DNA of 64,000 nucleotides from Salipiger bermudensis (lineage in GTDB: Bacteria; Pseudomonadota; Alphaproteobacteria; Rhodobacterales; Rhodobacteraceae). The stretch covers positions 434,001 through 498,000 of the forward strand of contig NZ_JAIUZY010000005.1 in the NCBI RefSeq assembly GCF_020171625.1. Direction: 5' to 3'. Below are positions 2,775-23,547 of this stretch, piece by piece. A model generated the notes under the pieces. It saw only the letters and a program-made list of their open reading frames with translations, had not been told where the DNA came from and searched no databases. Both the position numbers and the translations under genes were made by a program. The first letter of the stretch is position 1. Every line of letters begins with the position of its first letter.

Positions 2775-3989
2775 CTACGGCTCCTGCCGGGTCGCGAGGA
2801 TTTCCGAGACCAGCGTCTCCGCACCGAGGCTGGCGCGGAAATGGGTTTCCACATGGGCCCGGCCTGCGGCACTGAAATGCAGCGCGCTGTCGGGGTTCTG
2901 GGCCAGTTCGCGGATCGCGCGGGCCAGTGCGGTGGGGTCTTTCGGCGGCACCAGCTTGCCGGTGCTGCCATCGTCGATCAACTCGCGCACGCCGCCCGCA
3001 TCGGTGCCGATCGCCGGCACCCCGCAGGCCATCGCCTCCATGTAGGCCACGCCCAGCGGCTCGTGCCACGAGGCCAGCACGAAGGCGTGCGCCTCGAGCA
3101 GCTTCGCCTTCACCGCGTCGGCATCGATCGCGCCCAGCAGCTTGACGTGATCCTGCAGCCGCAGCTTGCGCAGATGCGCCTCGAGATCCTTGCGGAACCC
3201 CTCGCCGCCGGCATCATCCTCGCCGGCGATCTCGAGCCGCACGTCGACGCCCTGATCGAGCAGCTGGCGCATGGCCGACATCAGGTCCTGATGCCCCTTC
3301 ACCACGTTGAGCCGGCCGCAGGAAAACAGCCGGATCGGTCGGCCCTTTTCGGGCGGCTGGTAGGGGGTCTGGCGCTTCAGCACCTCGGTATCCACCCCCA
3401 TCGCACGCACGGTCAGGCGCTCGGGAAGATCCTCGGGCAGCGCCGCCTGCATCTCGTGCAGCAGCTTGTGGGTGATGATGGTGGCGAACGCCGCATTGCG
3501 CCACTTGAAGCGCTGGCCCGAGCCGTAATCCGACAGCGGGCCATGCAGGGTCAGCGAGTAGCTCGGCCCGCCGAGCTGACGCGACAGCGCCGCGATCAGC
3601 GCCGCGCGCGCGCAGGAATGCACGTGGACATGATCGAGACCGGCCTTCGCCGCGTGGGACTTCAGCTCCTGCGCCGCCGACAGCGTGACCGCCACGTCGC
3701 GGGCGAAGTCGGGCCCCTCCTTGAGCATCGTGCGCATCATCCCGCGCGGCAGCAGCCCGCTCAGGGCGCGCAGCGCGCTCAGCGGTTTGATCTGACCGAG
3801 ATAGGTGGTGCGCGCGATGGCGTCGTCCGACCAGTCATGCGCGATCAGTCCCGACGGCGGCATCCGCGTCGAAAGAAGGTCCACCACGTGGCCCATTTCC
3901 TCCAGCGCCTGGACTTCGCGCCAGAAGAATATGTGGGTCTGGCCCGGAAACTGGGGTACCAGGTATCCGATCCGCAATCTCTGCGACAC
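2775..3989 (-). CDS. Glycosyltransferase family 4 protein
   Basis: Predicted GT-B fold sugar transferase of 404 residues. The frame is open further upstream, but a GTG at 3989 is chosen because GGGGG lies about six bases before it and the family's N-terminal strand (RIGYLVPQFPG) starts just after. Family marks are the GRLNVVKGH segment of the nucleotide-sugar-binding half and the E-x7-E motif (E310 and E318 in HEPLGVAYMEAMACG), followed by the GG-x-x-E donor loop. GT4 enzymes move a sugar from an activated nucleotide donor to a lipid-linked or growing glycan in the cytoplasm. It is divergent from the GT2-flippase pair across an AT-richer gap and probably belongs to the same surface-glycan pathway. 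Sugar and acceptor cannot be read from sequence. Confidence 0.9.
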   Translation of the reverse strand: MSQRLRIGYLVPQFPGQTHIFFWREVQALEEMGHVVDLLSTRMPPSGLIAHDWSDDAIARTTYLGQIKPLSALRALSGLLPRGMMRTMLKEGPDFARDVAVTLSAAQELKSHAAKAGLDHVHVHSCARAALIAALSRQLGGPSYSLTLHGPLSDYGSGQRFKWRNAAFATIITHKLLHEMQAALPEDLPERLTVRAMGVDTEVLKRQTPYQPPEKGRPIRLFSCGRLNVVKGHQDLMSAMRQLLDQGVDVRLEIAGEDDAGGEGFRKDLEAHLRKLRLQDHVKLLGAIDADAVKAKLLEAHAFVLASWHEPLGVAYMEAMACGVPAIGTDAGGVRELIDDGSTGKLVPPKDPTALARAIRELAQNPDSALHFSAAGRAHVETHFRASLGAETLVSEILATRQEP

Positions 3990-4220
3990 GCATCCCCCGC
4001 TGTCAGCTCGTCCATACCAATGTGACCGGGATCGGCTGCGGTTTCCATCATGCCCTGCCGATTTCGGAAGAAGCCGCAGCACCGTGTTCGCGGCGCATCA
4101 GGCAGCCGTTATCAAATTGATTATAGCGTCTCGGCGCTTCTTACATTAAACACAATTTAGTGGCATGTGGGCGCCGAAAGGCGCGTGTTACACGTGTGGG
4201 TATCTGTTTGGTAATTTTTT
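3990..4220. promoter_or_regulatory. Divergent promoter region between glycan operons
   Basis: This 231-base gap separates two divergent glycan genes and is clearly richer in A and T than its surroundings, mainly at 4108-4165. It contains a perfect 5-bp hairpin with a GAAA loop (4171-4184) and an ACACGTGT palindrome (4190-4197) ahead of the downstream start. I infer that promoters for both directions lie here. No -35/-10 pair is convincing enough to name, and the short palindromes may be chance. Confidence 0.35.
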
Positions 4221-5078
4221 ATGACGGGATCATTTGAGGCTCCCGGGACGCCAGCCGTTTCGGTGATCGTGCCGGCAAGCAACGAGGCAGCGCTGATCGG
4301 CGGCTGCCTTGAGGCGTTGTGCGCCTCACATTGGCAGTCCGGGGCGCCTGTCGAGGGCATCGTCATCGCGAACGGATGCTGCGACGACACCGCAGAGCGT
4401 GCCCGTGCCAAGATTCCCGCCTTCGCGCAGCGCGGCTGGTCGCTGCGCGTGATCGAGCGGCAGGACGGCGGCAAGCTCGCGGCGCTCGATGCCGGGGATG
4501 CCGCTGCGCGCGGCGCCACGCGGGTCTATCTCGATGCCGACGTGACCGTGGCGCCGGAGCTGCTTGGAGAGCTGCACGAGGCGCTGTCCTGCCCCGAGCC
4601 GCGTTACGCCAGCGGCACCGTCAACATCACCGCCCGCAGCGCCGTGTCGCGCGCCTATGCACGGATCTGGCGGCAGGTGCCGTTCATGGCGCGCTGCGTG
4701 CCGGGCTGCGGCGTCTTCGCGGTCAACGCCGCCGGGCGCGGGCGCTGGGGGCGCTTTCCCGACATCATCTCGGACGACACATTCGTGCGGCTGAACTTCA
4801 CCCCCGAGGAGCGTGTCGGCGTGGCGGCGCGCTACGATTGGCCGATTGCCGAGGGGTTCGACCGGCTGGTGCGGGTGCGCCGGCGGCAGGATGCCGGCGT
4901 GGCCGAGATCGAGACGCGCTATCCCGCCCTTGTCGCCAATGACGACAAGCCCGCCTTTCCGGCCTCGGACAAGCTGGCGATGGCGCTGCGCGATCCGCTG
5001 GGCTTTGCCGTCTATACCGGCGTCGCGCTGAGCGTGCGCCTGCGCCCGGCCTCGGCCGACTGGAGCCGCGGCCGATGA
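4221..5078 (+). CDS. Glycosyltransferase family 2 protein
   Basis: GT-A fold enzyme of 285 residues. The N-terminus has the typical VSVIVPASNEA strand, and the metal-binding acidic motif is LDADV (near residue 96). GT2 enzymes transfer a sugar from a nucleotide donor, usually at the inner face of the membrane. The C-terminal part has no clear multi-helix membrane domain, so it is not a processive synthase. The start ATG follows a T-rich stretch with only a poor ribosome-binding site. The stop overlaps the flippase start by four bases (ATGA), so the two are translationally coupled. Role inferred: assembly of the repeat unit or glycolipid exported by the flippase. Confidence 0.88.
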   Translation: MTGSFEAPGTPAVSVIVPASNEAALIGGCLEALCASHWQSGAPVEGIVIANGCCDDTAERARAKIPAFAQRGWSLRVIERQDGGKLAALDAGDAAARGATRVYLDADVTVAPELLGELHEALSCPEPRYASGTVNITARSAVSRAYARIWRQVPFMARCVPGCGVFAVNAAGRGRWGRFPDIISDDTFVRLNFTPEERVGVAARYDWPIAEGFDRLVRVRRRQDAGVAEIETRYPALVANDDKPAFPASDKLAMALRDPLGFAVYTGVALSVRLRPASADWSRGR

Positions 5079-6439
5079 GCGTCGCGCTGCTCTCGCGCTT
5101 CCGCGGCGCCTCGCTGACCGCCCGGGTGATGCGCTCCTCGGCGCTGACCGTCGGCGGCTTCGCGTTCAGCCAGGGCCTGCGGCTGGCCTCGAACCTGATC
5201 CTGACGCGGCTGCTCTTTCCCGAGGCCTTTGGCCTGATGGCGCTGGTCTCGGTGTTCATGATGGGGCTGCAGCAATTCTCCGATGTCGGAGTCAGCCCGG
5301 CGATCCTGCAGAGCAAGCGCGGCGACGAACGCGATTTCCTCGACACCGCGTGGACCATTCAGGTGCTGCGCGGCGCGGGGCTGTTCCTCGTGGGGTGCGG
5401 CCTTGCGTGGCCGGCGGCGTATTTCTACGACGAGCCGCAGTTGCTCACGATCCTGCCGGCGGCGAGCTTCGCGCTGCTGATCGCGGGCTTCAAGCCGACC
5501 CGCATGGACAGCGCAAACCGGCACCTGAGTCTTGGTCTGGTGACGGCGCTCGACTTCGTCACGCAGACCACCGGCGTGGTGGCCGCAATCCTTCTGGCAT
5601 GGCTCACCGGCTCGGTCTGGGCGCTGGTGTTCAGCGGGCTGATCGCGGTGGCCGTGGAAGTCGTCATCAACTGGATCTTCCTGCCCGGCGCCGGCAACCG
5701 CTTCCGCTGGGAGGCGCCCGCCGCCAACGAGCTGATCAATTTCGGCAAGTGGATCTTCCTGTCGACGGTCTGCGGCTTCTTCTTCAGCCAGAGCGACAAG
5801 ATCCTGATGGGCAAGTACCTGAGCCTCGATCTGCTCGGGATCTACAATATCGGCTATTTCCTCGCCGCGTTCCCGATGCTGCTGGGCGGCATGGTGACGC
5901 GGCGCATCCTGATCCCGATCTACCGCGAGAGTCCGCCGACCGAGAGCCGCGAGAACTTCCTGCATCTTCGTAAGATGCGCTTCGTGGTGACCGCGGCGCT
6001 GATCGCGATGGTCGGCGTCTTCGCAGCTTTTGGCGACTGGATGGTCGACCTGCTCTATGACGAGCGCTACCTCGCCGCCGGGGCGGTGACGGTGATCGTC
6101 GCGTGCGTGCAGATGCCCCAGATCATCGTACAGACCTATGATCAGGCGGCGCTGGCCGCAGGCGACAGCCGCACCTTCTTCGTGCTCGCGCTGGCGCGGG
6201 CGGTGCTGATGGTGACCTGCATCCTCGTCGGGCTCGAGCTTGCCGGGCTGCTGGGGGCGCTGCTTGGAATCGGGGCGGCCTATGTGCTGGCTTATCCGGT
6301 GGTGGTCTGGCTCGCGCGGCGCATGGGGGCGTGGGATCCGCTGCACGACGCGCTGTTCACGCTGGTGGCGCTGGCGCTTGCGGCGATGGCGGCGGCACTC
6401 AACTGGGAGGCAATCGTGGCGCTCGCGCGGCTGGGTTGA
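5075..6439 (+). CDS. Oligosaccharide flippase family protein (Wzx-like, MOP superfamily)
   Basis: Integral membrane protein of 454 residues with about twelve hydrophobic segments. The N-terminal region (SQGLRLASNLILTRLLFPEAFG) is typical of the polysaccharide biosynthesis PST/Wzx branch of the MOP exporters, as is the hydrophilic QSKRGDERDFL loop. These proteins flip undecaprenyl-linked oligosaccharides or glycolipids across the inner membrane. It starts inside the stop of the preceding GT2 gene. Placed directly before the polyketide synthase gene, it makes the island look like one synthesis-and-export unit. A lipid II-type or other glycolipid substrate is an alternative that sequence alone cannot exclude. 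Confidence 0.9.
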   Translation: MSVALLSRFRGASLTARVMRSSALTVGGFAFSQGLRLASNLILTRLLFPEAFGLMALVSVFMMGLQQFSDVGVSPAILQSKRGDERDFLDTAWTIQVLRGAGLFLVGCGLAWPAAYFYDEPQLLTILPAASFALLIAGFKPTRMDSANRHLSLGLVTALDFVTQTTGVVAAILLAWLTGSVWALVFSGLIAVAVEVVINWIFLPGAGNRFRWEAPAANELINFGKWIFLSTVCGFFFSQSDKILMGKYLSLDLLGIYNIGYFLAAFPMLLGGMVTRRILIPIYRESPPTESRENFLHLRKMRFVVTAALIAMVGVFAAFGDWMVDLLYDERYLAAGAVTVIVACVQMPQIIVQTYDQAALAAGDSRTFFVLALARAVLMVTCILVGLELAGLLGALLGIGAAYVLAYPVVVWLARRMGAWDPLHDALFTLVALALAAMAAALNWEAIVALARLG

Positions 6440-6586
6440 TATCCTGACCCTGCTGACTTCGAGACAAATATTACAAGGGCGATCATTGTCCGCGATATGG
6501 CGACAATAATGGCCAATTTCACGGGAAACCGGGGTTATCGTTGCGCATATCGGCGACTCGCCCCATTTTCTCTTAACTCTTGGTTT

Positions 6587-6604
6587 ACGACGGCGGCCCG
6601 TCGT
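6587..6604 (+). other. Hairpin in the leader of the polyketide synthase gene
   Basis: A perfect 7-bp stem (ACGACGG / CCGTCGT) with a CGGC loop lies 20 bases before the synthase start. A second, weaker stem (ATTGTC at 6485-6490 with GACAAT at 6502-6507) lies in the same 185-base gap. Either could mark a leader structure or an operator. There is no T-run, so a terminator for the flippase gene is unlikely. Confidence 0.3.
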
Positions 6605-6624
6605 GGGTTGCGAGGTACTGGTTT

Positions 6625-9600
6625 ATGAGCACAGCATTGCCGCTGAACGGGCGTGAGAACGACATTGCCATCGTCGGGATGGCAGCCCACCTGCCCGGGG
6701 CCGACAGCATCCTCGCCTACTGGGACAACCTGCGCGCCGGACGCTCCTCGATCCGCCGCCTGACCGAGGACGAGCTGCGCGCCGCCGGAGAGGATCCCGG
6801 CCTGATGCGGCACAAGGATTACGTTCCCTTCGCCGCGCCGCTCGATGATTTCGAGATGTTCGATGCCGAGTTCTTCGGGTTCTCCCCGAAGGAGGCGGCG
6901 ATCATGGACCCGCAGCACCGCCAGTTCCTCGAGACCGCGTGGGAGGCGCTCGAGAATGCCGGGCACGTGCCCGACAGCTTCGACGGGCAGGTCGGGGTCT
7001 TTGCCGGCTGCGGCATGGGCTCGTATTTCTATTTCAACGTCTGCTCGAACCCGGACCTCGTCGAGAATACCGGCATGTTCCTGTTGCGCCATACCGGCAA
7101 CGACAAGGACTTCATGACCACCCGTCTGAGCCACGTGCTTGACCTGCACGGGCCGTCGATCAACCTCCAGACCGCGTGCTCCACCTCGCTCGTCGCCACG
7201 CATTACGCCGCGCAGGCGCTGCTGAACGGCGAATGCGACATGGCGCTGGCCGGCGGCGTGACCATCGAGCTGCCGCAGAACCGCGGCTATCTCTACAAGG
7301 AAAACGAGATCCTCTCGCCCGACGGCGCCTGCCATGCCTTCGACCACCGCGCGCAGGGCACGGTCTTTGGCTCGGGCGCGGGCGTGGTGGTGCTGCGCCG
7401 GCTGTCTGACGCCATCGCCGATGGCGACCACATCTGGGCCGTGATCAAGGGCACCGCCGTCAACAATGACGGCGCGCAGAAGGCCGGCTATCTTGCGCCC
7501 TCCGTCGACGGGCAGGCGCAGGCAGTGGCCGAGGCGCAGGCCATGGCGGGCATCACCTCGGACACGGTCGATTATGTCGAGTGCCACGGCACCGGCACCT
7601 ATCTGGGCGACCCAATCGAAGTCGCCGCCATGACGCAGGCCTTCCGCGAGAGCTCGGACGCGGTCGGGCATTGCCGCATCGGCTCGGTGAAGACCAATAT
7701 CGGCCATCTCGACACCGCCGCCGGGGTGGCGAGCCTGATCAAGGCCTCACTGGCGCTGCACGAGGGCGAGATGCCGCCCTCGCTGGGCTTCGAAGCCCCG
7801 AACCCGGCGATCGATTTCGACAGTTCGCCCTTCGTGGTCAACGATACGCTGACGCCGTGGCCGCAGACCGGCCATCCGCGCCGCGCCGGGGTCAACTCGC
7901 TGGGCGTGGGCGGCACCAACGCCCACGCGGTGCTCGAAGAGGCGCCCGCGCGGGCCGCGTCGGACGAGAGCGACTGGCCGTTCCAGATCCTGACGCTGTC
8001 GGCCCGCAGCAAGGCCGCGCTCGACGAGGGCGCAAAGCGCCTCGCGGCGCATCTGCGCACCCATCCCGAGCAGTCGCTCGCCGATGTCGCTTGGACGCTG
8101 CAGCAGGGCCGCCGCGCCTTCGACAAGCGCCGCATCGTGGTGGCCGAGAGCCACGAGGAGGCCGCGCGCCTGCTCGAGGAGGAGGCGCCGCGCCGGGTGC
8201 ATTCGCACAGCGCGCTCGACCGGCCCGAGACCGTGTTCATGTTCCCCGGCGGCGGGGCACAATATGCCGGCATGGCCCGCGATCTCTACGAGACCGAGCC
8301 GGTCTTTGCGGAATGGATGGATCGCGGCCTCGACGCGCTGGCCGAGATCACCGATGCCGACATCCGGGCGCTCTGGCTGCCCGACGAGGCCGACCGGCAG
8401 CGGGCCGACGAGGCGCTGACCCGGCCCTCGCTGCAACTGCCGCTGATCATGATTACCGAGTACGCGCTGGCGCAGCTCTGGATGAGCTGGGGCATTCAGC
8501 CGGTGGCGCTGGCCGGCCACTCGATGGGTGAGAATACCGCCGCCTGCCTGGCCGGCGTGATGAGCTTCGAGGATTGCATTGGTCTCGTGCACCTGCGCGG
8601 GCGCCTGTTCGACACCGTGCCGGCGGGGGGTATGCTGTCGGTCAATCTCTCCGCCGAGGCGCTGCAGCCGCTGCTGGGCGAGGATCTCGACCTCGGCGCG
8701 GTCAACGCCCCCGAGCTGACCGTCGCCTCCGGCCCGCAGGCGGCGCTCGACGCGCTCGAGGCGCGGCTGCGCGCCGAGGACATCGACTGCCAGCGCATTC
8801 CCATCGACATCGCCGCGCACAGCCACATGCTCGAGCCGATCCTTGCGGATTTCGGCGCCTACCTGCGCTCCATCGATCTCTTCGCGCCGCAGATCCCGCT
8901 GACCTCGAACCGCAGCGGCGCGCTGATGACCGACGAACAGGCGACCTCGCCCGACTACTGGGTCGCGCATCTGCGCGGCACCGTGCATTTCGCCGATTGC
9001 ATCGGCACGCTGGCGCGGCCCGAGCGCATCTATCTCGAGGTCGGGCCGGGCAAGGCGCTCTCGACGCTGGCGCGCCAGCACCCCGACGTGCAGGGGCAGG
9101 CGGTGCTGTCGTCGCTGCGCCACCGCGACGATGCCATCGCCGATGACAAGCACATGTTCGAGGTGCTGGGCCGGTTCTGGGCGCTGGGTGCCGCGTTCGA
9201 CTGGGCGCAGGTCTGGGGCGCGGCGCGGCGCAACCGCGTGGTGCTGCCCTCTTACGCCTTCCAGCGCGCGCCCTATTTCATCGCGCCGGGCAAGGCGCAG
9301 TCCGACACCGCGCCGCAGTTCCTGATGCGCAGCGACGACGTCGCGAGCTGGGGCTGGAAACCAGTCTGGCGCCCGCGCGCTGCCGCCGTCGAGGTCGATG
9401 TCGAGGCCGGCCTCGCGGAGGCCGAGCCGCAGAGCTGGCTGGTCTTCATGGACGAGGCCGGGCTCGCCGCCCGCGCGGTGGCAAAGCTGCGTGCCGCCGG
9501 TCACACGGTGATCGAGATCCGCCCCGGCGACAGCTTCACCCGCGTCTCCGACAGTGCCTATCTCCTGCCGCCCGAGCGGGGCCGCGAAGGCTATGACCTG

Positions 9601-13095: not shown

Positions 13096-13099
13096 GCGC

Positions 13100-14122
13100 A
13101 TGGGTCCGAAGCTTCTGATCGTCTCGCTGAACTACCGCACGCCGGAGATGACGCTGCGCTCGGTGCGGGCGGCCCTGCGCGAGATGGCGGGGCTCAACGC
13201 CGAGCTGGTGATCGTCGACAATGACAGCGGCGACGGCTCGTTCGAGACGATGCAGGCGGCGCTCGGGTCCGAGGACTGGGCGCAGGGCGCGCCGATCCGG
13301 CTGATCCAGTCGGGCCATAACGGCGGCTTCGGCGCGGGCAACAACGTCGGCATCCGCGCCGGCTGGTCCGACGGCAGCGCGCCGGATTACGTCTACGCGC
13401 TGAACTCCGATGCCTTCCCGGACCCCGGCAGCCTGCGGGCGCTGCTCGACCATCTCGAGACGCACCCGGAGGCGGGCTTCGCCGGCAGCTACATCCACGG
13501 GGAGGAGGGCGAGCCACATATCACCGCCTTCCGCTTTCCCTCGATCGCCTCGGAGCTCGAGGGCGCGGCGCGGTTCGGCCCGATCTCGCGCCTGCTGCAT
13601 CGCCGGCGCGTACCGCTCGAGTTGCCATGGCAGACGCAGCGGGTCGACTGGCTGGCCGGGGCCTCGCTGATGATGCGGCAGAGCGTTCTGGACGAGATCG
13701 GCCTCTTCGACGAGACCTTCTTCCTTTATTTCGAGGAAACCGACCTCTGCCTGCGCGCTGCGCGGGCCGGGTACGAGACCCACTACGTCCGCGACAGCGA
13801 GGTGACCCATATCGGCTCGGTGTCGACGGGGATGAAGACGTGGGCGCGGGTGCCGGGCTTCTGGCTCGACAGCCGCTGGCACTATTTCACCAAGAGCCAC
13901 GGGCGCGCCTATGCGGCCGTGGCAACGCTCGCGCATCTGGCGGGCGGGCTGCTCTGGCGGCTGCGGCGGGTGCTGCAGCGCAAGCCGCAGGCCGATCCCG
14001 ACCACTTCCTGCGCGATCTCGTGTTTCATGACCTCGGTGCGATGGCCCGGCCTTTGCCGGTCACACGTGAAACCAAACCCGGCCCGGCGCCGGGGGCGGT
14101 GCTCGGGGCACAGTCGGAGTAG
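13100..14122 (+). CDS. Glycosyltransferase family 2 protein
   Basis: GT-A fold transferase of 340 residues, of the type often annotated as rhamnosyltransferase-like. The N-terminus reads LLIVSLNYRTPEMTLRSV, followed by VIVDNDSGDGS, and the DXD-equivalent is LNSDAFPDP. The acceptor-side motif is FLYFEETDLCLRA, typical of the family (ED-x-D/C). A GGAG lies about seven bases before the ATG and only four bases separate it from the polyketide synthase stop, so it is in the same operon. Sitting between the PKS and NRPS genes, it may glycosylate the assembly-line product or a lipid carrier. This role is inferred. Confidence 0.88.
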   Translation: MGPKLLIVSLNYRTPEMTLRSVRAALREMAGLNAELVIVDNDSGDGSFETMQAALGSEDWAQGAPIRLIQSGHNGGFGAGNNVGIRAGWSDGSAPDYVYALNSDAFPDPGSLRALLDHLETHPEAGFAGSYIHGEEGEPHITAFRFPSIASELEGAARFGPISRLLHRRRVPLELPWQTQRVDWLAGASLMMRQSVLDEIGLFDETFFLYFEETDLCLRAARAGYETHYVRDSEVTHIGSVSTGMKTWARVPGFWLDSRWHYFTKSHGRAYAAVATLAHLAGGLLWRLRRVLQRKPQADPDHFLRDLVFHDLGAMARPLPVTRETKPGPAPGAVLGAQSE

Positions 14123-14127
14123 GCAGT

Positions 14128-17100
14128 ATGGCGCAGTTTTCCAGCGTGGTGATCGGCAATGAATCCCTTCTCGTGCAGTGCAGCGAGAAGCTTCTGGCGA
14201 CGGGGCATCCGATCCGGGCGGTCGTGACCCGCAATCCGGATATCGCCGACTGGGCGACGGGCCGGGGGCTGACGGTCGTCGCGCCCGGCAAGGGGCTGGC
14301 CGAGCGGCTTGACGGTCTGGAGTTCGACTGGCTGCTGTCCATCGCCAATCTCGACATCATCCCCGCGGCGGTGCTGGCCCTGCCCGGCAAGGGCGCGATC
14401 AACTTCCACGACGGCCCGCTGCCGCGCCATGCCGGGCTCAACGCCCCGGTCTGGGCGCTGATCGAGGGCGAGAGCCGCCATGGCGTGACATGGCACATGA
14501 TCGAGGGCGGCGTCGACGAGGGCGACATCCTCGTATCGCGCGGCTTCGACATCGCGCCGTCCGACACCGCTCTGACGCTCAACACCAAGGCCTACGAAGC
14601 CGCGAGCGACAGTTTCGGCGACCTGATGGAGCAGCTCGAGCACGGGCTGCGCCGCTTTCCGCAGGACCTGTCGCTGCGCAGCTACCACGCGCTGGCCGAC
14701 CGGCCCTCGGCGCACGGGCTGCTCGACTTCACCCGCCCCGCGACCGAGCTGGCGCGGCTGGTGCGGGCGCTGGACCACGGCGGCTACGCCAACCCCCTCT
14801 CGGCGCCGAAGCTGCGGGCGCGTGGCGGGTTCTGGCTGGTCGGCGAGGCCCGCGCGGTCGAGGGCAGCGGCACGCCCGGCGCGGTGCTCGAGGCGACCGA
14901 CGATCACCTGACGGTGGCCTGCGGCAGCGGCGCACTGAGGATGGCGCATTTCGCCCATCCCTGCGGCACGCCTGCGCGGGTGGCGCAGGTCGGCAAGCCG
15001 GGCGAGGCGCTGGACCTCGTGCCGGGCGACGACCGGGCCGCCATCGCCGAGGCGGTGGCGCAGGTCGCACCGCATGAGGGCCATTGGCGCAAGCGCCTGA
15101 CCGAGCTGTCCCCGGCAGAGCTTCAGGGGCTGGGCAAGGCGGGTGGCGAGGTGGTCTCGCGGCCTCTGGTGTTGGGCGATGCGGTGCAGGCGCAGGTCAT
15201 CGCCAGCGCCTTCACGGCACGGCTCGACGGGCACGAGGTCTGCGATCTGGCCTATGCCGACACCGCGCTTGCCGCGTTGGCCGAGACCGGGGTCATCGCG
15301 CCGTGGGTGCCTCTGCGGGTCGAAGCTGCGGGCACCGTGGAGGCGCTGGCGCAGCGTCTCGAGGCGGAGCTGGCCGAGCTTCGCAAACGCAAGGGCTTTG
15401 CCTCCGACCTGCCGGCCCGTGAGCCGCAACTCACCGGCGCGCCGCCGGTCCCGGATATCGGCCTGAGCTTTGGGGCCGGCCCGATCGACGGCACCGCGAT
15501 CACCCTCGAACTGACCGAGGGCGGCGCCACGCTGCACGCCGATACCGGACGCATTCCGCAGGCGCAGGCCGAGCTCCTTGCCGCGCGGTTCGACCTGATG
15601 GCGCGCGAGGCGCAGAACCAGTCCGACCTTGCCAGCCTGCCGGTGCTGCCCGAGGCCGAGCGAGACATGGTGCTCAACCTCTGGAACGTCACCGCACAGG
15701 CGCATGACCGCGGCCTGACCATGCAGGCGGCGTTCGAGGCGCAGGTCGCCAAGACCCCCGACGCGGTGGCGCTGGTCTTCGAGGATCAGAGCCTGACCTA
15801 TGCCCAGCTCAATGCCCGCGCCAATCAGGCGGCGCGTGTGCTGCGCGGCATGGGCGTGGCGGCGGGTTCGGTCGTCGGGCTCTTCTGCCGCCGGTCGGTC
15901 GACCTGATGGTCGGCGCGCTCGGCATCCTGAAGGCGGGCGGCGCCTACCTGCCGCTCGATCCGTCCTACCCGGCGGACCGCCTGCGCCATTACATCGCCG
16001 ACAGCGGCGCGCCGGTGATCGTGACGCAATCGGCGCTGAAGGGCGACTTGCCCGAGCACACGGCCGAGCTGCTGGTGATCGACGCCGACCCGCGCCTGCC
16101 GCAGGCGCCGACCGGCAATCCCGACCCGGCGAGCGGGCCGGAGGATCTGGCCTACCTGATCTACACCAGCGGCTCGACCGGCACGCCCAAGGGCGTGATG
16201 ATCGAGCATCGCAACGTGCTGAACTTCTATCTCGGCATGGATGCGAACGTGCCGCACGACCCGGCGGGCACGTGGCTCGCGGTGACGTCGCTCAGCTTCG
16301 ATATCTCGGTGCTCGAGCTGTTCTATACCACCGCGCGCGGCTTCAAGGTGGTGCTGACCTCGGACGAGGACCGGGGGCTGATCTCGAACGGGCCGATGCC
16401 GCTGTCGGATCGCTCGATGCAGTTCTCGATCTATTACTGGGGCAACGATGACGGCGCGGGCCGCGACAAGTATCGGCTGCTGCTCGAAGGCGCCAAGTTC
16501 GCCGATCAGAACGGCTTCTGCGCGGTCTGGACCCCGGAGCGGCACTTCCACGCCTTCGGCGGGCCCTATCCCAACCCCTCGGTCACCGGGGCTGCCGTCG
16601 CAGCGGTGACGCAGAACATCGCGGTGCGCGCGGGCTCGGTGGTGGCGCCGCTGCACCATCCGTCGCGCATCGCCGAGGAATGGGCGGTGATCGACAACCT
16701 CACCAACGGGCGCGCGGGGCTGGCCATCGCCTCGGGCTGGCAGCCGGACGATTTCGTGCTGCGCCCCGAGAACACGCCGCCGAACAACAAGCCCGCCATG
16801 CTCGACAATATCGAGCAAGTGCGCCGCCTCTGGCGTGGCGAGCCGGTCGCCTTCCCGCGCAAGGACGGCTCGCTGCACGAGGTGGTGACGCAGCCGCGCC
16901 CGGTCTCGACCGAGCTGCCGGTCTGGGTGACCACCGCCGGCAACCCCGAGACCTGGAAAGAGGCGGGGCGGCTGGGCTGCAACGTGCTCACCCACCTGCT
17001 CGGCCAGTCGATCGACGAGGTGGCTGACAAGATCCGGCTCTATCACGGCGCGCTGCGCGATGCGGGGCACGATCCGGCGGACTTCACCGTCACGCTGATG

Positions 17101-18834
17101 CTGCACAGCTTCGTCGCCGCCACCCGCGAGGAGGCGCGCGAGGTCGCCCGCGAGCCGATGAAGGATTACCTGCGCTCGGCCGCCGGGCTGATCAAGCAGT
17201 ACGCCTGGGCCTTCCCGGCGTTCAAGCGGCCTCAGGGGCTCAACAACCCGTTCGAGCTCGATCTCGAGATCCTCACCCCCGAGGAGCTCGATGCGATCCT
17301 CGACTTCGCCTTCGAGCGCTACTTCAACGACAGCGGCCTGTTCGGCACCGTCGAGGATGCGCTGACACGCGCCGAGGAACTCAAGCGCATCGGCGTGGGC
17401 GAGATCGCCTGCCTCATCGACTACGGCCTCGAGACCGAGCGCGTCCTCGAGGGGCTGCGGCCGCTGGCGCAGGTGGTACAGGGGGCCAACGTGGCGCCCG
17501 AGCTCGATGCGGGGGATTTCTCCATCGCGGCGCAGATCCTGCGCCACGAGGTGACGCATCTGCAATGCACGCCCTCGATGGCGCGGATGATCGCGATGAA
17601 CGACGAGGCGCGCTATGCGCTGTCGAAGGTGCAGCACCTGTTCCTTGGCGGCGAGCCACTGCCCGGGGCGCTGGTGCAGGAGTTCGGCAAGATCACCGAG
17701 GCCAGCGTCACCAACATGTACGGCCCCACCGAGACCACGATCTGGTCCTCGACCGAAGCCGCCGGGCGCGGGGACGGCGTGGTCAATATCGGCCTGCCGC
17801 TGGCCAATCAGCAGCTCTACGTGCTCGACGAGGACATGCGCCCGGTGGGCGTGGGCCAGCCGGGTGAGCTGTGGATCGGCGGCGAGGGCGTGACCCGCGG
17901 CTACTGGGGCCGCGAGGACCTGACCGCCGAGCGCTTCGTGCCGAACCCGTTCCATGCCGGGCGGATGTATCGCACCGGCGATCTGGTGCGCCGCCGCATG
18001 GACGGGCGCATCGATTTCATCGGGCGCGTCGATCATCAGGTGAAGATCCGCGGCTTCCGGATCGAGCTTGGCGAGATCGAGGCGGCGATGGAGGCACAGC
18101 CGGGCGTGACGCAGGCGGTGGTCGTGGCGCGTGAGGATCAGCCGGGCGATATCCGGCTCGTGGGCTATTACAGGTCCGAGGCGCCGCTGGACGAGGCGGC
18201 GATGAAGGCGGCGATGGGCGCGGATCTTCCGGGCTTCATGGTGCCCGCGCACCTGATGCGGCTCGAGAGCTTCCCGCTGACGCCCAACAAGAAGGTCGAT
18301 CGCAAGGCGCTGCCCAAGCCGATGGCCAAGGTGCTTGCCCCGAAACCCGCCGCCAGCCCGGCCCCCGAAGGCAAACCCGCCGCGGCGCCGGTGGTGGCGC
18401 GTGCGGCAGGGCCGGGCAGCGCGCAGGTCGAGGCGCGGATCGCCGAGATCTGGTCCTCGGTGCTGGGTGTGGCCGGGATCACCGGGCGCGACAATTTCTT
18501 CGACCTCGGAGGCCACTCGCTGCTGGCGGTGCAGGCGCACCGCACGATCCGCGACGAGCTCGGCGCGAAGGGGCTGTCGATCACCGACATCTTCCGCTTC
18601 CCGGTGCTGGCCGACCTGACCGCCCGGGTGGCGGGGCTGGTCGACCCCGAGGCCGCCAAGGCCGCCGCGCCGAAGCGCGCTCCGGCGGCGCAACCCCAAC
18701 CTGCTGTAGCTGCGGCGCCGGCTGTCCCCGCGCCCGCACCCGAAGCGCCCGCGCCCGTCGCCAATGACCGGGCGCAGGCGCGCTCCGACGCCATGGCGCG
18801 CCGCCGCGAGATGCGGGCGCGGCGCAGCGGCTGA
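14128..18834 (+). CDS. NRPS module: formyltransferase, adenylation domain with inserted luciferase-like monooxygenase, carrier
   Basis: Protein of 1568 residues. The N-terminal domain (about 1-300) is a methionyl-tRNA/ArnA-type formyltransferase with N92, H94 and D130 in place. Residues about 320-530 look like the tail of a condensation domain without the HHxxxDG motif. The adenylation domain starts near 530 (A3 YTSGSTGTPKG at 679-689, A4 FDISVLELF near 726). A flavin-dependent luciferase-like monooxygenase of the MupA/Atu3671 kind fills about 764-1110. The A domain then resumes (NMYGPTETTIW near 1196, GRVDHQVKIRGFRIELGEIEA near 1300, NKKVDRKALP near 1388). The carrier serine is S1464. The tail (1500-1568) is Ala/Pro-rich and ends in an Arg-rich helix. 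Pocket residues read by hand as D-I-L-Q-F-G-M-I-W, close to the known glycine code. Likely role: load, N-formylate and oxidise an amino acid. Confidence 0.92.
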   Translation: MAQFSSVVIGNESLLVQCSEKLLATGHPIRAVVTRNPDIADWATGRGLTVVAPGKGLAERLDGLEFDWLLSIANLDIIPAAVLALPGKGAINFHDGPLPRHAGLNAPVWALIEGESRHGVTWHMIEGGVDEGDILVSRGFDIAPSDTALTLNTKAYEAASDSFGDLMEQLEHGLRRFPQDLSLRSYHALADRPSAHGLLDFTRPATELARLVRALDHGGYANPLSAPKLRARGGFWLVGEARAVEGSGTPGAVLEATDDHLTVACGSGALRMAHFAHPCGTPARVAQVGKPGEALDLVPGDDRAAIAEAVAQVAPHEGHWRKRLTELSPAELQGLGKAGGEVVSRPLVLGDAVQAQVIASAFTARLDGHEVCDLAYADTALAALAETGVIAPWVPLRVEAAGTVEALAQRLEAELAELRKRKGFASDLPAREPQLTGAPPVPDIGLSFGAGPIDGTAITLELTEGGATLHADTGRIPQAQAELLAARFDLMAREAQNQSDLASLPVLPEAERDMVLNLWNVTAQAHDRGLTMQAAFEAQVAKTPDAVALVFEDQSLTYAQLNARANQAARVLRGMGVAAGSVVGLFCRRSVDLMVGALGILKAGGAYLPLDPSYPADRLRHYIADSGAPVIVTQSALKGDLPEHTAELLVIDADPRLPQAPTGNPDPASGPEDLAYLIYTSGSTGTPKGVMIEHRNVLNFYLGMDANVPHDPAGTWLAVTSLSFDISVLELFYTTARGFKVVLTSDEDRGLISNGPMPLSDRSMQFSIYYWGNDDGAGRDKYRLLLEGAKFADQNGFCAVWTPERHFHAFGGPYPNPSVTGAAVAAVTQNIAVRAGSVVAPLHHPSRIAEEWAVIDNLTNGRAGLAIASGWQPDDFVLRPENTPPNNKPAMLDNIEQVRRLWRGEPVAFPRKDGSLHEVVTQPRPVSTELPVWVTTAGNPETWKEAGRLGCNVLTHLLGQSIDEVADKIRLYHGALRDAGHDPADFTVTLMLHSFVAATREEAREVAREPMKDYLRSAAGLIKQYAWAFPAFKRPQGLNNPFELDLEILTPEELDAILDFAFERYFNDSGLFGTVEDALTRAEELKRIGVGEIACLIDYGLETERVLEGLRPLAQVVQGANVAPELDAGDFSIAAQILRHEVTHLQCTPSMARMIAMNDEARYALSKVQHLFLGGEPLPGALVQEFGKITEASVTNMYGPTETTIWSSTEAAGRGDGVVNIGLPLANQQLYVLDEDMRPVGVGQPGELWIGGEGVTRGYWGREDLTAERFVPNPFHAGRMYRTGDLVRRRMDGRIDFIGRVDHQVKIRGFRIELGEIEAAMEAQPGVTQAVVVAREDQPGDIRLVGYYRSEAPLDEAAMKAAMGADLPGFMVPAHLMRLESFPLTPNKKVDRKALPKPMAKVLAPKPAASPAPEGKPAAAPVVARAAGPGSAQVEARIAEIWSSVLGVAGITGRDNFFDLGGHSLLAVQAHRTIRDELGAKGLSITDIFRFPVLADLTARVAGLVDPEAAKAAAPKRAPAAQPQPAVAAAPAVPAPAPEAPAPVANDRAQARSDAMARRREMRARRSG

Positions 18835-18838
18835 TCTG

Positions 18839-19510
18839 ATGGATGCGGCGGCGCTGAGACAGGCGCTCCGCACGGTCCGCTTCCCGGACGGGCTGGGCTG
18901 GGCCGTGCGCGAGGCGACCCACGATCCCGACCTGCTCTTCCCCGAGGAGCGCGCCGCCGTCGCGAAGGCGATCCCCACGCGCGTCGCGGAATTCGCCGGC
19001 GGGCGCAGCGCCGCGCGTGCCGCCATGGCGCGGCTCGGCCTCCCGCCCTCCGCCATTCCCGCCCGGCCCGACCGGGCGCCTGTCTGGCCCGCGGGGGTGA
19101 TCGGCAGCATCAGCCATGCCGGGCCGGTCTGCCTTGCGGTGGTCGGGCGCCGGGATGACTGGGAGATGATCGGCGTCGATCTCGAGCCCGACCGCCCGAT
19201 GGCGGCGGAGCTTGTGCCCGAGATCGCCTCCCCGGAGGAGCTGGGCGCCCTGGCGCCGCTGCCCGAGACTCGCGCCGCGACCCGGATCTTCAGCGCCAAG
19301 GAGGCCACCTACAAGGCGCAGTACCCGGTGACCGGCGCGCTGTTCGGCTTCGACGCAATGCGGGCGAATCTGCAAATCGGGCGCATGAATATGGCGAAAA
19401 ATGTCGGGCTCGGGCGCGGCGCGGCTTTGCCAATGTGGCAGCTTCTGGTCGCGAAACACGTGATATCGCTCTGCCTATGCGCGAGTAAAGGCCAAAAACC
19501 CCGATATTAA
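18839..19510 (+). CDS. 4'-phosphopantetheinyl transferase, Sfp/EntD type
   Basis: Enzyme of 223 residues that moves phosphopantetheine from coenzyme A to a carrier-protein serine. ATG at 18839 is chosen because it lies four bases after the NRPS stop; the open frame further upstream is inside the NRPS gene. Family motifs are GSISHAG, the metal-binding GVDLEPDRP and FSAKEATYKAQYP. The N-terminus (LLFPEERAAV, RVAEFAGGRSAAR) matches EntD-like members. It is the obvious activator of the ACP (S1806) and PCP (S1464) encoded just upstream, which completes the pathway. The coding region continues to the TAA at 19510; base composition becomes slightly less GC-rich near its end. Confidence 0.92.
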   Translation: MDAAALRQALRTVRFPDGLGWAVREATHDPDLLFPEERAAVAKAIPTRVAEFAGGRSAARAAMARLGLPPSAIPARPDRAPVWPAGVIGSISHAGPVCLAVVGRRDDWEMIGVDLEPDRPMAAELVPEIASPEELGALAPLPETRAATRIFSAKEATYKAQYPVTGALFGFDAMRANLQIGRMNMAKNVGLGRGAALPMWQLLVAKHVISLCLCASKGQKPRY

Positions 19511-19715
19511 GGCGAGAATGTGGTCCCGTTTCTCGATGTGGAGACGAATTGTTTCTATTCTGCGACCATTTGAACGTGGCCAAATTGGGGCAGCTTTGGT
19601 AGCTTACGGCTTGAAAGTGGCATGACCCCGACGTGTTTTGGTCCGAATTGGGTCGGTCGGGTCCAGCGCTTTTTCCGAGCGTAGGGTGGGGGCCAGACGT
19701 TGCCGGAGTAACGAG

Positions 19716-21041
19716 ATGAACCAGTTCCAGTCGATCGGCGAAGTGCTGTCCGCACTCAAGCGCCGCGCTCTGTTGATTTTGCTAGTAACCGTTCTTGGTA
19801 GCGTTGCCTCCGTCTGGGTCGCTCTCAACCAGGTCAAGGTGTATGAAGCGACCGCCGTGGTGCAGATCGAGGAGGGCCAGATGCCCGACTCTCTCGCCGG
19901 GGCCTCGGCCCAGACACAGGATGCCTCGCGTCGGGTGCGTCTGATCGAACAGCGCCTGATGTCGCGCGACAATCTCGTCAGCCTGATGGAACAGCATGAT
20001 CTGTTCTCCGGAGCCGCCGGGATGCCCATCGGTCAGCGCCTGTTTCAGATGCGTCAGGCCGTCTCGATCGAAGAGATCCGCGCCAACAACAACAGCTTCC
20101 TCGCTCAGCAGGAGATGCCCTCGGGCCTGCGCATCAGCGTCGTGCTTCCCGATCCGCAGAAAGCGGCCGACATCGCCAACGAGATGATGCATCAGGTCAT
20201 CAACCAGTCGCGCGACCGCAGCCTGAGCAGCGCGCGTGACACGCTGGCCTTCTTCGAAAGCGAAGAGGCCCGGGTCGAGACCGAGATCGAGGCGATGGAG
20301 GCGAAGATCGCCACCTTCAAGCGCGAGAATGCCGACGCCCTGCCGAGCGGCACAAGCGCGCTGCGCACGCAGCTCACCACGCTCGAGGACAGCCAGCTCA
20401 CCCTGGCGCGCAGCATCGTCGAGATGGAGGGCAATTCCACGCGTCAGCGCGAGGAAGTGCTGGCCCGTCAGCTTGGCCTGATGCGCGAGCAGCAGAGCCT
20501 GATCGAGCAACGCATCAGCGATATCAACGAAACGCTGCTGCAGGCCCCCGAGGTCGAGCGCGAGCTTTCGGCCCTCGAGCGCGATCTCGACCGGCTCAAG
20601 GATCAGTACAGCGTCATCACCCGTCGCAAGGCCGATGCCGAGATGGGCCAGATGCTCGAGGATCGCCAGCAGACGGACCGCTTCGAGGTGCTGGAATCCG
20701 CGCTCGTGCCCGAGGTTTCGGCCTCCAGCGGCCGCAAGAAGATCGTTATGGCCGGTGTCATGGCCAGCGTCCTCGCCGGTGTCGCACTCGGTTTCGTGCT
20801 GGAGCTTCTGAACCCGGCGATCCGCAGCGCGGCGCAGCTCGAGCGCGTGCTCGGCCTGCAGCCGGTGGTGTCGATCCCGGTGGTCGAGGCGCGCCGCGAC
20901 CGTCGCAGCCGACAGCTGCGGTCTGTCACCGCGGTCGGGCTGATCGTGGCGCTGACGCTGCTGCTTTACCGCGTCGTCACCGAGGTTCTGCCGTGGCACG
21001 GCCTTCTGGACAGGTTCCTGCCCAGCGTGGCCCGGTCCTGA
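19716..21041 (+). CDS. Polysaccharide chain-length determinant (Wzz/GumC-like)
   Basis: Inner-membrane protein of 441 residues. ATG at 19716 gives a protein that starts just before the first membrane helix (ALLILLVTVLGSVASVWVAL). A large periplasmic part with long charged, heptad-like helices (about 150-330) follows, then a second helix (VMAGVMASVLAGVALGFVL, about 345-365). A third hydrophobic stretch lies near 405-425. This is the layout of Wzz-N/GNVR proteins that set polymer length in Wzx/Wzy export. It lacks a fused kinase; the cognate ATPase is probably the convergent gene at 21122-22240. It is preceded by a 205-base gap that likely carries its own promoter, so it may be regulated apart from the PKS-NRPS genes. 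Confidence 0.85.
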   Translation: MNQFQSIGEVLSALKRRALLILLVTVLGSVASVWVALNQVKVYEATAVVQIEEGQMPDSLAGASAQTQDASRRVRLIEQRLMSRDNLVSLMEQHDLFSGAAGMPIGQRLFQMRQAVSIEEIRANNNSFLAQQEMPSGLRISVVLPDPQKAADIANEMMHQVINQSRDRSLSSARDTLAFFESEEARVETEIEAMEAKIATFKRENADALPSGTSALRTQLTTLEDSQLTLARSIVEMEGNSTRQREEVLARQLGLMREQQSLIEQRISDINETLLQAPEVERELSALERDLDRLKDQYSVITRRKADAEMGQMLEDRQQTDRFEVLESALVPEVSASSGRKKIVMAGVMASVLAGVALGFVLELLNPAIRSAAQLERVLGLQPVVSIPVVEARRDRRSRQLRSVTAVGLIVALTLLLYRVVTEVLPWHGLLDRFLPSVARS

Positions 21042-21048
21042 TCGTCGC

Positions 21049-21073
21049 AGGGGCCGGGCCGGAACCGGCCCCT
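21049..21073. terminator. GC-rich hairpin between convergent glycan genes
   Basis: A perfect 9-bp stem (AGGGGCCGG / CCGGCCCCT) with a 7-base loop lies eight bases after the wzz-like stop, in the 80-base gap between convergent genes. A second GC-rich imperfect stem follows at about 21085-21112. Neither has a U-run, so a Rho-assisted or bidirectional stop is the best guess. Confidence 0.45.
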
Positions 21074-21121
21074 CAGCGACGCTGAGGCCGGGCTATAACC
21101 GGCGCGGCCCCTGACGAACGA

Positions 21122-22240
21122 TCAATAGGTATACTGGCGGATCTTGCTGCCTTCGGCCTTGTTGAGCACGGTGCCGAGCAAGGGCACGTCGTCGCCGAGG
21201 CGGCGCTGGGTTTCGCGGATATCCTTCTCGGTGGTGATCCCGCCACCGACGACGAGGATCACCCCGTCGAACTGGCCGCCGAAGGCCATGACATCATCAT
21301 AGTAAAGCGCCGGCGGCAGGTCGAAGAGCATCACGTCGGGCGCGAAGGCGTCCTCGATGTGCCTCAGCACGCTGCGGCTCTGCGGCGCTTGCAGAAGCTC
21401 CGACGCATAGGGCTCGGCGGTGCCATTGAAGCCGAAGGCGATGTTGCGACCGGCGTGGATCTCGTTCTCGCCCATGCGGATGAAGTGATCTTCCGGCGGC
21501 ACGAGGCCGCGCAGCACGTCGCCCATCGCGCCGGGGTTCTTCACTCCCATCACCTTGTGCAGCGAGGGGCGGCGCAAATCGCAATCGACGAGCATCGTGC
21601 GGCAATTCTGCTGCCGCGACAGGCTGATCGCGAGGTTCGCCGCGGTGAAGGTCTTGCCGCAATCCTTGGTCGGCGAGGTGATCGCCACCCGCGTCCAGCC
21701 GCGCGCGTCCAGCGCCTGCAGCAGACGCGTGCGTAGCACGTCGAACGCGGCGTGGGCCGGGTCCTGACGTTCTGCCGTGATGATGCGGTTCCGCTCGAGA
21801 TGACGCCGGTTGACGCTGAACTCCTGCAGCCGGTGCCAAAGCGGCGTCGGCTTGCGCGCCGGGCTTCGAGGCTCCGCTTCGGGCGAGGGTTCGGGCGCGG
21901 ACGGCGCTGCGACGGAGGCCGGTGCGCTGACCTTGTCGCCCTCATGCACGCGCAGCCGCTTGCGGATTTCCTCGCGGTTGGCGCTGGCCTGGCGCTGCGC
22001 GTCCGCGCGCGCCTCGGCCTCGCGCTTCGCCTGCAGGCGGGCCTCGTCCTCGGCGTTGCGCCGCGCGGCCTCTTCGGCGGCGAGCGCGGTTTCCTCGGCG
22101 AGGGCAGCCTGGTCCTCGGCGCGCCGGCGCTCGAGGCGTCGACCGCGGGATTCCAGCGGCTCGATGGGGGGCTCTTCGGGGCCGTCGTCGACGGTGTCGC
22201 GGTTCCTGCGACGGAACTTGCGCCGTTCAATCGTGGTCAT
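21122..22240 (-). CDS. CpsD/CapB-family exopolysaccharide P-loop ATPase (BY-kinase-like)
   Basis: Predicted cytoplasmic partner of a Wzz-type protein, 372 residues. ATG at 22240 is chosen because GGAGGG lies about seven bases before it. The first 130 residues are highly charged, rich in Arg, Glu and Ala, and probably coiled coil. The nucleotide-binding domain has the deviant Walker A SPTKDCGKT, the Walker A' strand MLVDCDLRRPSLHKVMG and Walker B VMLFDLPP, as in bacterial tyrosine kinases and their relatives. The C-terminus ends RQYTY with only two tyrosines rather than the usual Tyr cluster, so autophosphorylation in the normal way is doubtful. Its neighbour is the convergent wzz-like gene, with which it likely controls polymer export. 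Confidence 0.82.
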   Translation of the reverse strand: MTTIERRKFRRRNRDTVDDGPEEPPIEPLESRGRRLERRRAEDQAALAEETALAAEEAARRNAEDEARLQAKREAEARADAQRQASANREEIRKRLRVHEGDKVSAPASVAAPSAPEPSPEAEPRSPARKPTPLWHRLQEFSVNRRHLERNRIITAERQDPAHAAFDVLRTRLLQALDARGWTRVAITSPTKDCGKTFTAANLAISLSRQQNCRTMLVDCDLRRPSLHKVMGVKNPGAMGDVLRGLVPPEDHFIRMGENEIHAGRNIAFGFNGTAEPYASELLQAPQSRSVLRHIEDAFAPDVMLFDLPPALYYDDVMAFGGQFDGVILVVGGGITTEKDIRETQRRLGDDVPLLGTVLNKAEGSKIRQYTY

Positions 22241-23195: not shown

Positions 23196-23547
23196 TAGGG
23201 TGCCTAGCACTGTGTCTCGCTCCGCTGGTCGAATCTCAATCAAAGTTAATGGGAAATGGACCTATGGATGCGGCGCAAACATGGCTTCGACATGATGCTT
23301 TGGTGGCTTGGGGGAGCGCAGCACTTCTCGGTCAACGCCCGCGGGTGCGCGTGCGCTGAGGTTTTGCTGTTGGTCGCGTTCAACCGAAACTGTTGTGTGG
23401 TGCTGGCTAGGGGCGCGCCAGATAGGGGCGATCAGCGCCGGGGGCGCCCGCACAGGTCGAAGCATGGCCCGAGCTGAGACTTGTGCGACCGCCGCGACTG
23501 CCCGGCAGGTCGGCGCCGCGCCCATTTGGTCGGGCGCGGCGGAGGGG
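23196..23547. other. Intergenic stretch without a recognisable gene
   Basis: This 352-base gap lies between two minus-strand genes. Open frames in it show no family motif and look like chance. The part near 23200-23300 is AT-richer and probably holds the promoter of the MHYT gene. The part near 23515-23540 holds a hairpin at the end of the metallo-hydrolase gene, listed separately. Nothing else was seen. Confidence 0.5.
23515..23540 (-). terminator. Hairpin after the metallo-hydrolase gene
   Basis: A perfect 9-bp stem (GCCGCGCCC / GGGCGCGGC) with an 8-base loop begins eight bases after the stop of the minus-strand gene. There is no U-run after it. It is the most likely transcription end or 3' stabiliser for that gene. 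Confidence 0.45.

Follow-up and report, generated by a model that had tools for sequence, protein, structure and literature searches.

We analysed a 64,000-nucleotide stretch of the 4.74 Mb genome of Salipiger bermudensis (G000:C5:434001-498000, hereafter the window), in which a polyketide synthase (PKS) and a non-ribosomal peptide synthetase (NRPS) are encoded among genes for the synthesis and export of a glycan. Nine genes lie at 2775-22240 (Table 1): three glycosyltransferases (GTs; an EpsE-type GT4 and two of family 2, GT2a and GT2b), a Wzx-type flippase, the PKS, the NRPS, a phosphopantetheinyl transferase (PPTase), a Wzz-like protein and an ATPase resembling CpsD and bacterial tyrosine (BY) kinases. 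The first-pass annotation of this DNA had listed the same genes, and all are present, each scoring above the curated threshold of one or more Pfam or NCBIfam families; for the ATPase, the tyrosine-kinase models TIGR03018 and TIGR01007 gave 93.9 and 62.3 bits, both under their cut-offs. That annotation also placed the core genes four or five bases apart. This is exact for the run PKS, GT2b, NRPS and PPTase (4, 5 and 4 bases), while GT2a and the flippase gene overlap by 4 bases and about 185 bases separate the flippase from the PKS, the start of which we favoured by eye at the ATG at 6625 over the opening of the reading frame at 6580. In gene-called loci of the family, the median gaps, which rest on gene starts chosen by a script, are 4 (n = 50), 3 (n = 52) and 1 (n = 41) bases for the same three junctions, and 197 bases (n = 22) between flippase and PKS.

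Table 1. Genes and domains of the cluster, in window coordinates (ORF, open reading frame; FT, formyltransferase; C', C-terminal half of a condensation domain; A, adenylation domain; PCP, peptidyl carrier domain).
Feature	Position	Strand	Basis
GT4, EpsE family (exopolysaccharide biosynthesis)	about 2775-3977, ORF extends to 4082	-	NF041876 633.8 bits (cut-off 400); PF00534; gene call
GT2a, family 2 glycosyltransferase	4221-5078	+	PF00535 52.2 bits; kept in type A neighbourhoods
MOP/Wzx-type flippase	5075-6439	+	PF13440 168.7 bits; NCBIfam MOP flippase matches under cut-offs
Single-module type I PKS, KS-AT-KR-DH-ACP-TE	about 6625-13095, ORF opens 6580	+	Pfam domains; catalytic residues
PKS KS domain	6658-7791	+	Pfam
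PKS AT domain	8233-9048	+	Pfam
PKS KR domain	10135-10722	+	Pfam
PKS DH domain	10804-11637	+	Pfam
PKS ACP domain	11959-12150	+	Pfam
PKS TE domain	12274-12963	+	Pfam
GT2b, family 2 glycosyltransferase, between PKS and NRPS	13100-14122	+	PF00535 47.9 bits; co-occurrence with NRPS; GT-A-like model
NRPS, FT-C'-A(monooxygenase nested)-PCP	14128-18834	+	Pfam and NCBIfam domains
NRPS N-terminal FT (N92, H94, D130)	14128-14997	+	PF00551/PF02911; ArnA/FMT-like
NRPS C', without the HHxxxDG half	15025-15717	+	Profile match to solved C domains
NRPS A domain, split by monooxygenase	15733-18294	+	PF00501 307.9 bits in two stretches
NRPS nested FMN luciferase-like monooxygenase, MupA/Atu3671 family	16423-17475 (residues 766-1116)	+	TIGR04020 477.7 bits (cut-off 244.45)
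NRPS PCP	18436-18630	+	PF00550 43.3 bits
Sfp/EntD-type 4'-phosphopantetheinyl transferase (PPTase)	18839-19510	+	PF17837 81.0 bits, PF01648 45.4 bits
Wzz-like polysaccharide co-polymerase	19716-21041	+	PF02706 33.4 bits; TIGR03007 133.2 bits, under its cut-off
CpsD/BY-kinase-like ATPase	21122-22240	-	PF01656 32.6 bits (cut-off 25.4)

The NRPS, described at first pass as a formyltransferase-NRPS-monooxygenase protein, does contain these domains, and its architecture can be refined to a formyltransferase, the C-terminal half of a condensation domain, an adenylation domain with the monooxygenase nested inside it, and a carrier domain. A model of residues 1-532 was predicted with high confidence (AlphaFold pLDDT 95.9), and the 50 Foldseek matches listed for it, ArnA and FMT first, cover the formyltransferase part; the condensation-domain assignment consequently rests on sequence only, namely on profile positions about 320-543, which match the C domains (chain residues 202-471) of microcystin synthetase B, Txo2 and EntF. 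An HH...D[GA] pattern occurs within the first 620 residues in just one of 122 Rhodobacteraceae NRPS rows. The triad N92/H94/D130, which we take to be the catalytic Asn-His-Asp, is kept in 117-118 of the 122 rows at each position, the remainder being 3-4 gaps and at most one substitution, and the carrier serine in 119 (three gaps). A formyltransferase is thus followed by A-PCP without an active condensation domain, as in a loading module.

The monooxygenase sits between adenylation motifs A4 and A5 (placed by eye), with AMP-binding sequence on either side, and among the matches listed (60 of 260) this stretch aligns to the PuwE domain 6ket at 343 bits. Read by motif, the specificity code of the A domain is DILQFGMIWK, identical at 8 of 10 positions to DILQLGLIWK, which is listed as the glycine code of kalimantacin Bat2 (PMC4831472, Table 1 of that paper). 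Among the eight commonest codes, the form DILQ-x-GMIW recurs in 110 of the 122 other Rhodobacteraceae rows (x is M in 61, L in 32, F in 13 and Y in 4); the tenth letter in this alignment falls one residue off the lysine K1389, itself invariant in 17 sequences. The A domain is therefore predicted to activate glycine, which the truncation of the condensation domain makes the most likely starter of the line. The formyltransferase triad and the glycine-type code would together fit an N-formyl-glycyl starter, in keeping with the N-formylated amino-acyl/polyketide group that had been suggested at first pass.

The PKS comprises one module, in which the Pfam scan found no ER domain. All 107 Rhodobacteraceae PKS rows, counting that of the window, have its catalytic residues (Cys/His/His of KS, Tyr/Asn of KR, His of DH). 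The AT motif IAAH, found in 104 of these rows, is not assignable to any extender unit.

To place the cluster in its family, we searched 198 genomes, about one per genus, and found TIGR04020 above its cut-off in 68; 69 neighbourhoods of other genomes were fetched for comparison. Genes were called with a codon-score script, and at least five loci that it called poorly (L053, L084, L085, L095 and L103) were read by tblastn instead. PKS, GT2b and NRPS recur as a close block in the same order and strand, usually together with the PPTase, and this block is found in two glycan settings. In type A, to which the window belongs, EpsE, GT2a and the flippase lie upstream and Wzz and the BY-kinase-like gene downstream; in type B, a GT2, a WecG/TagA transferase and a Wzy-like protein lie upstream, often with a second exopolysaccharide (EPS) block downstream. 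The type B families were identified on one member each, the Wzy_C match (20.5 bits) being below the cut-off of 31.7. The flippase family is present in 26 and the Wzy-like family in 27 of 71 gene-called entries, two of which are the window itself. A conserved family of ~311 residues also follows the NRPS or PPTase in 22 of these entries, mostly of type B (e.g. L072:2583-3518, minus strand); the member tested had no Pfam match.

Among full 20-kb loci of the family, 58 of 60 contain a glycan gene other than GT2b (the exceptions are L039 and L087), compared with none of 20 segments of equal length drawn at random, a single one per genome, from 20 of these genomes, a contrast that is somewhat flattering because the glycan profiles were built from core loci. 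GT2b itself is present in 56 of the 60. When GT2b is counted as a glycan gene, one is found in 103 of the 104 distinct Rhodobacteraceae-clade loci that span 17 kb or more, five duplicate pairs between our two collections having been merged for counts at this length.

GT2b is the tightest partner of the NRPS, in a near one-to-one relation. With an orthologue threshold of E ≤ 1e-100, 63 of the 198 genomes have both, 4 GT2b only, 5 the NRPS only and 126 neither (Fisher p = 1.9e-40, a value that overstates independence, the genomes being phylogenetically nested). The four apparent cases of GT2b without the NRPS (G085, G097, G114 and G155) were fetched and rejected as counter-examples, since all have an NRPS: two lie at contig ends and two lack the monooxygenase. 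Conversely, in three 'NRPS only' genomes (G022, G118 and G158) the NRPS sits on a short contig or where one ends, and the other two (G144 and G185) correspond to loci without detected glycan genes. EpsE (NF041876) is found in 34 genomes, 31 of them also with the monooxygenase NRPS; of the remaining three, G085 has a monooxygenase-less NRPS, and no NRPS was found near EpsE in G067 and G137. This co-occurrence and the 58-of-60 conservation led us to reject chance adjacency, and together with the recurring block they support, at the level of evolution, the idea of one pathway. Genome G126 has two NRPS copies: that of L042 lies together with PKS and GT2b among glycan genes, and that of L094 has no GT2b beside it. 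The structural model of GT2b is GT-A-like (pLDDT 91.4). A single-sequence search for it gave no solved relative, its GT2 profile matches are weak, and the fold search returned generic GT-A relatives (GalNAc-T, TM about 0.58, root-mean-square deviation near 10) that give no call of donor or acceptor.

Two natural variants bear on the chemistry. In L252 (genome G085; 10198-15489 and 16487-19831), a 1114-residue NRPS of the form FT-C'-A-PCP lacks the monooxygenase in the same glycan setting, and its PKS matched KS, AT, KR, ACP and TE with no DH match, and both the monooxygenase step and the DH step therefore seem to be optional adjustments of the oxidation state. In L254 (genome G097; 6190-16512), the monooxygenase is gone, the formyltransferase and carrier motifs are lost and the PKS is split into two frames with glycan genes around it, so that this copy has apparently decayed.

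Further parts of a Wzx/Wzy system are encoded elsewhere in the S. bermudensis genome. A WecG-WcaJ fusion (C5:421 kb) and Wza (C5:417 kb) are encoded 12-17 kb upstream of the window, and beyond them another flippase and a GT2. A Wzy-like protein at C5:270 kb is 45% identical to the type B protein with the sub-threshold Wzy_C match; it belongs to a region at C5:256-272 kb (L260), about 165 kb from the cluster, that also contains an epimerase-like gene, a GT2, GT4s and WecG. In L108, L109, L111 (the named relative Salipiger abyssi, 82%), L165 and others, the epimerase-GT2-GT4 part directly follows the BY-kinase-like gene, and by gene order the region at C5:256-272 kb is the second EPS half, displaced by rearrangement. 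Judged by sequence similarity, the parts of a Wzx/Wzy system (Wzx, Wzy-like protein, Wzz/PCP, BY-kinase-like protein, Wza and polyprenyl sugar transferase) are hence present, though split in this strain. Between Wza/WecG-WcaJ and the window, 5-8 kb before the latter, lie CMP-Kdo-type genes (DAHP-synthase-like, cytidylyltransferase and SIS-CBS; L007:12345-14868, equal to C5:426345-428868), which presumably deserve Kds names. The cluster is flanked at 42-2753 of the window by an RTX calcium-binding protein gene (PF00353), whose family recurs next to the cluster and groups 20 of the 71 gene-called entries, and at 22452-23243, beside the BY-kinase-like gene, by a gene for an MHYT-domain signalling membrane protein.

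Outside the family the picture is mixed. Of 385 genomes from the class, 11 contain the monooxygenase family at E ≤ 1e-60; five of the 11, the window genome among them, belong to the same family as the window. The best 80 of at least 589 related stretches in named genomes include relatives in Rhizobiales and in genomes or metagenome-assembled genomes (MAGs) labelled Gemmatimonadota, Acidobacteria, Planctomycetes, Chloroflexi and others, and in many the PKS adjoins the NRPS; for Rhodopirellula, the phylum assignment is our assumption. In a tree of the A-monooxygenase region (157 of 159 loci with usable sequence; one FastTree run, midpoint root), 123 Rhodobacteraceae sequences (support 0.85) share a clade (0.90) with 12 sequences of a Rhizobiales-rich group. 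All nine loci of at least 17 kb in the Rhizobiales-rich group have a glycan gene, GT2b counted and duplicates merged. Beyond this clade, the same count gives 6 of 17 loci. Two of the distant loci, L150 and L178 from deltaproteobacterial MAGs, have a GT2b relative near the pair (47% and 53% identity), accompanied in L150 by Wzz- and BY-kinase-like genes and in L178 by a BY-kinase-like gene.

Relatives are also found on plasmids (29 records, 14 of which contain 80% or more of the NRPS at a single site). The annotation of these plasmids, taken from five of seven loci (L202 and L203 come without distributed annotation), names near the pair a sugar transferase in Ruegeria, Parasedimentitalea and Paracoccus, a flippase in Paracoccus, Aminobacter and Shinella, an O-antigen ligase family protein and polysaccharide export in Aminobacter, and polysaccharide export in Shinella. 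On the plasmid of Paracoccus sp. Arc7-R13, a second NRPS gene adjoins EPS genes (L201:1-552). Paracoccus marcusii CP157 has been described as having a large HSR-NRPS-PKS hybrid on a 225-kb plasmid, one shared with Arc7-R13, from which the L201 record comes; the hybrid likely includes this NRPS.

The cluster is already in print as an orphan hybrid biosynthetic gene cluster (BGC). In Roseibaca domitiana V10, an 'NRPS-like/T1PKS' region is reported with the NRPS at 350,790-355,316 (PMC10584327), and the NRPS start that we placed in L164, from the same strain, is base 355,316, identifying the two as the same cluster. The hybrid type, with little or no similarity to clusters already known, is given there for 18 of the 37 species, not all of which need carry this cluster. 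This printed record qualifies the suggestion of an undescribed system at first pass. The main text of that paper contains none of the words 'glycosyltransferase', 'exopolysaccharide', 'formyl', 'luciferase' and 'monooxygenase'. Among the papers that it listed, our literature search found none on an NRPS-PKS/glycan link, a weak negative given that most subscription papers lie outside its coverage, and none for Atu3671 or for the glycine code string; the available text of PMC4359443 holds nothing on this cluster.

Several described systems resemble parts of the cluster, in so far as the cited sources cover them. FMN monooxygenases nested in glycine A domains are described as hydroxylating the glycyl α-carbon in the myxothiazol, melithiazol and solanimycin (SolF) lines (PMC10204066, PMC11342130), and the same arrangement is given for some crz-like clusters. 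In the myxothiazol/SolF type, however, the module extends or ends a peptide, hydroxylating or cleaving at the glycyl unit, whereas here it starts the chain after the formyltransferase and probably feeds the PKS; with a formyltransferase in front and the C domain truncated, we found no counterpart of the upstream peptide chain that is cleaved to an amide. Formyltransferase-initiated loading is shared with LgrA of linear gramicidin, OzmO of oxazolomycin and CongA of conglobatin, the latter two being FT-glycine loading modules that feed a PKS (PMC4504003, PMC8949500). The line studied here differs from these in its truncated C domain between FT and A, nested monooxygenase, single PKS module and surrounding polysaccharide genes. 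Finally, the type I PKS genes wcbR and rkpA reside within capsule clusters of Burkholderia and rhizobia (PMC3908369) and so, as here, belong to a polysaccharide export cluster; by description, an NRPS partner is unmentioned there, in contrast to the TE-bearing PKS with an NRPS starter module and the Wzx/Wzz/BY-kinase-like context of the present locus.

Taken with what is known of these families, the gene content would allow the following course. The PPTase would arm both carriers, and the A domain would load glycine on the PCP. The FT domain would formylate the glycyl amine to make glycine the starter, and the nested monooxygenase may hydroxylate the glycyl α-carbon. The KS domain would then take up this unit and add at least one extender, KR and DH would reduce and dehydrate, and TE would release the chain. 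A small formamido-polyketide might finally be joined to a glycan repeat unit by TE or via the dedicated GT2b, and the flippase, Wzz and the BY-kinase-like protein would help to export that unit. The starter, the α-hydroxylation and the order of formylation, hydroxylation, extension and release are drawn by analogy; how many times the chain would be extended, how the product would be joined to a sugar or lipid and exported, and what its structure and role would be are pure inference.

We favour the reading that a formyl-glycine-primed short polyketide is made for a Wzx/Wzy-type glycan by an NRPS-PKS line recruited into a polysaccharide cluster, and judge its chances of being right or wrong to be about equal. 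The occurrence of the same core in two glycan contexts counts for it. The first-pass annotation had proposed one pathway for the whole island and looked to gene order across Rhodobacteraceae; the conserved block and its glycan neighbours bear this out, with L087 as the locus lacking a glycan gene, yet obligate coupling is contradicted outside the clade. Genomes that keep PKS and NRPS genes without glycan genes, the very observation named there as speaking against the proposal, do exist: by our core-built profiles, 11 of the 17 distant loci and, inside the clade, L087 have no glycan gene. Ten of the 11 have the PKS in the locus (L160 does not), and one, L039, is of the same family by kinship. 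We hence rejected the notion that the pair is glycan-specific everywhere, no glycan gene having been found beside it in several phyla. Such stand-alone loci imply that the pair yields a product without glycan neighbours and was probably recruited into glycan clusters; with its two genes it seems to be a line that works on its own and that polysaccharide clusters of the Rhodobacteraceae/Rhizobiales clade acquired, as did perhaps, independently, those of the deltaproteobacterial MAGs L150 and L178.

Other observations likewise weigh against the glycan assignment or against a uniform chemistry. A Pfam scan of 20 neighbour proteins at eight glycan-free or glycan-sparse loci found no glycosyltransferase or polysaccharide exporter; these proteins belong to metabolism, transport and signalling, with a GDSL/AlgX-like and a hexapeptide protein in L153. 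The profiles favour the loci from which they were built and may miss foreign GTs outside. GT2b is present in just one of the nine Rhizobiales-group loci, and the nucleotide-binding motif of KR is altered in five of seven Rhizobiales rows (the five types listed), so that the chemistry need not match there; among 16 PKS rows from outside, four have a gap at the TE serine and one lacks the DH His. No enzyme that would visibly attach an acyl group to a sugar was seen, and a flippase or GT beside an NRPS can also serve a free glycosylated metabolite.

The main rival is indeed a free-standing glycosylated secondary metabolite, to which GT2b would add one sugar and which the flippase or another pump would export, the polymer genes sharing no more than regulation. 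That the line occurs at those 11 distant loci without detected glycan genes, that GT2b rather than the EPS genes is the closest partner of the NRPS, and that a GT2b relative stands beside the pair in L150 and L178 would all suit such a product. The surroundings, however, consist of polymer genes (Wzz, BY-kinase-like, Wzy-like, WecG and sugar transferase) and come in two different polymer contexts; we regard a free glycoside as rather unlikely, if a serious contender. Less probable still is that the PKS iterates and its product anchors or primes the glycan in the manner of RkpA/WcbR. The documented place of those synthases in capsule clusters (PMC3908369) and the single module, which could iterate, speak for a lipid anchor or primer; a formyl-glycine starter with α-hydroxylation would make a poor lipid, the Pfam scan found no ER domain, and a standard polyprenyl sugar transferase is present to start the glycan. 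We consider it very improbable that the NRPS-PKS island merely hitch-hikes in EPS regions since such regions often exchange genes. The plasmid-borne relatives and L087, L094 and L154, where NRPS and PKS are found without GT2b between them, are compatible with hitch-hiking, but the link is kept in 58 of 60 and 103 of 104 loci from about one genome per genus, the gene junctions are close and the partnership with GT2b is nearly one-to-one.

An assembly line in a sugar-polymer cluster beside its dedicated GT2b raises the prospect of decorated surface sugars of a kind not recognised so far. Somewhat more tentatively than the pathway itself, we suggest a new class of surface glycan that would carry as a decoration, or be built on, a polyketide primed with formyl-glycine, tailored by the monooxygenase and made by a dedicated NRPS-PKS-GT2 block, in approximately one-third of the sampled genera of the family and, with other glycan genes, in the Rhizobiales-rich group. 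The cluster itself is known as an orphan hybrid BGC, and a PKS in a capsule cluster has its precedent in rkpA/wcbR. FT domains in NRPSs were called very scarce in a 2022 review, which names three peptides (PMC8949500), yet this FT-started line is present in 68 of 198 genomes of this family. Even as a free glycoside, its product would rank as a widespread assembly-line product of the family that is as yet unassigned. If the product is placed on a surface polymer, a large bacterial group would possess a glycan modification that natural-product and polysaccharide surveys have overlooked, and the genes would provide a direct handle on it.

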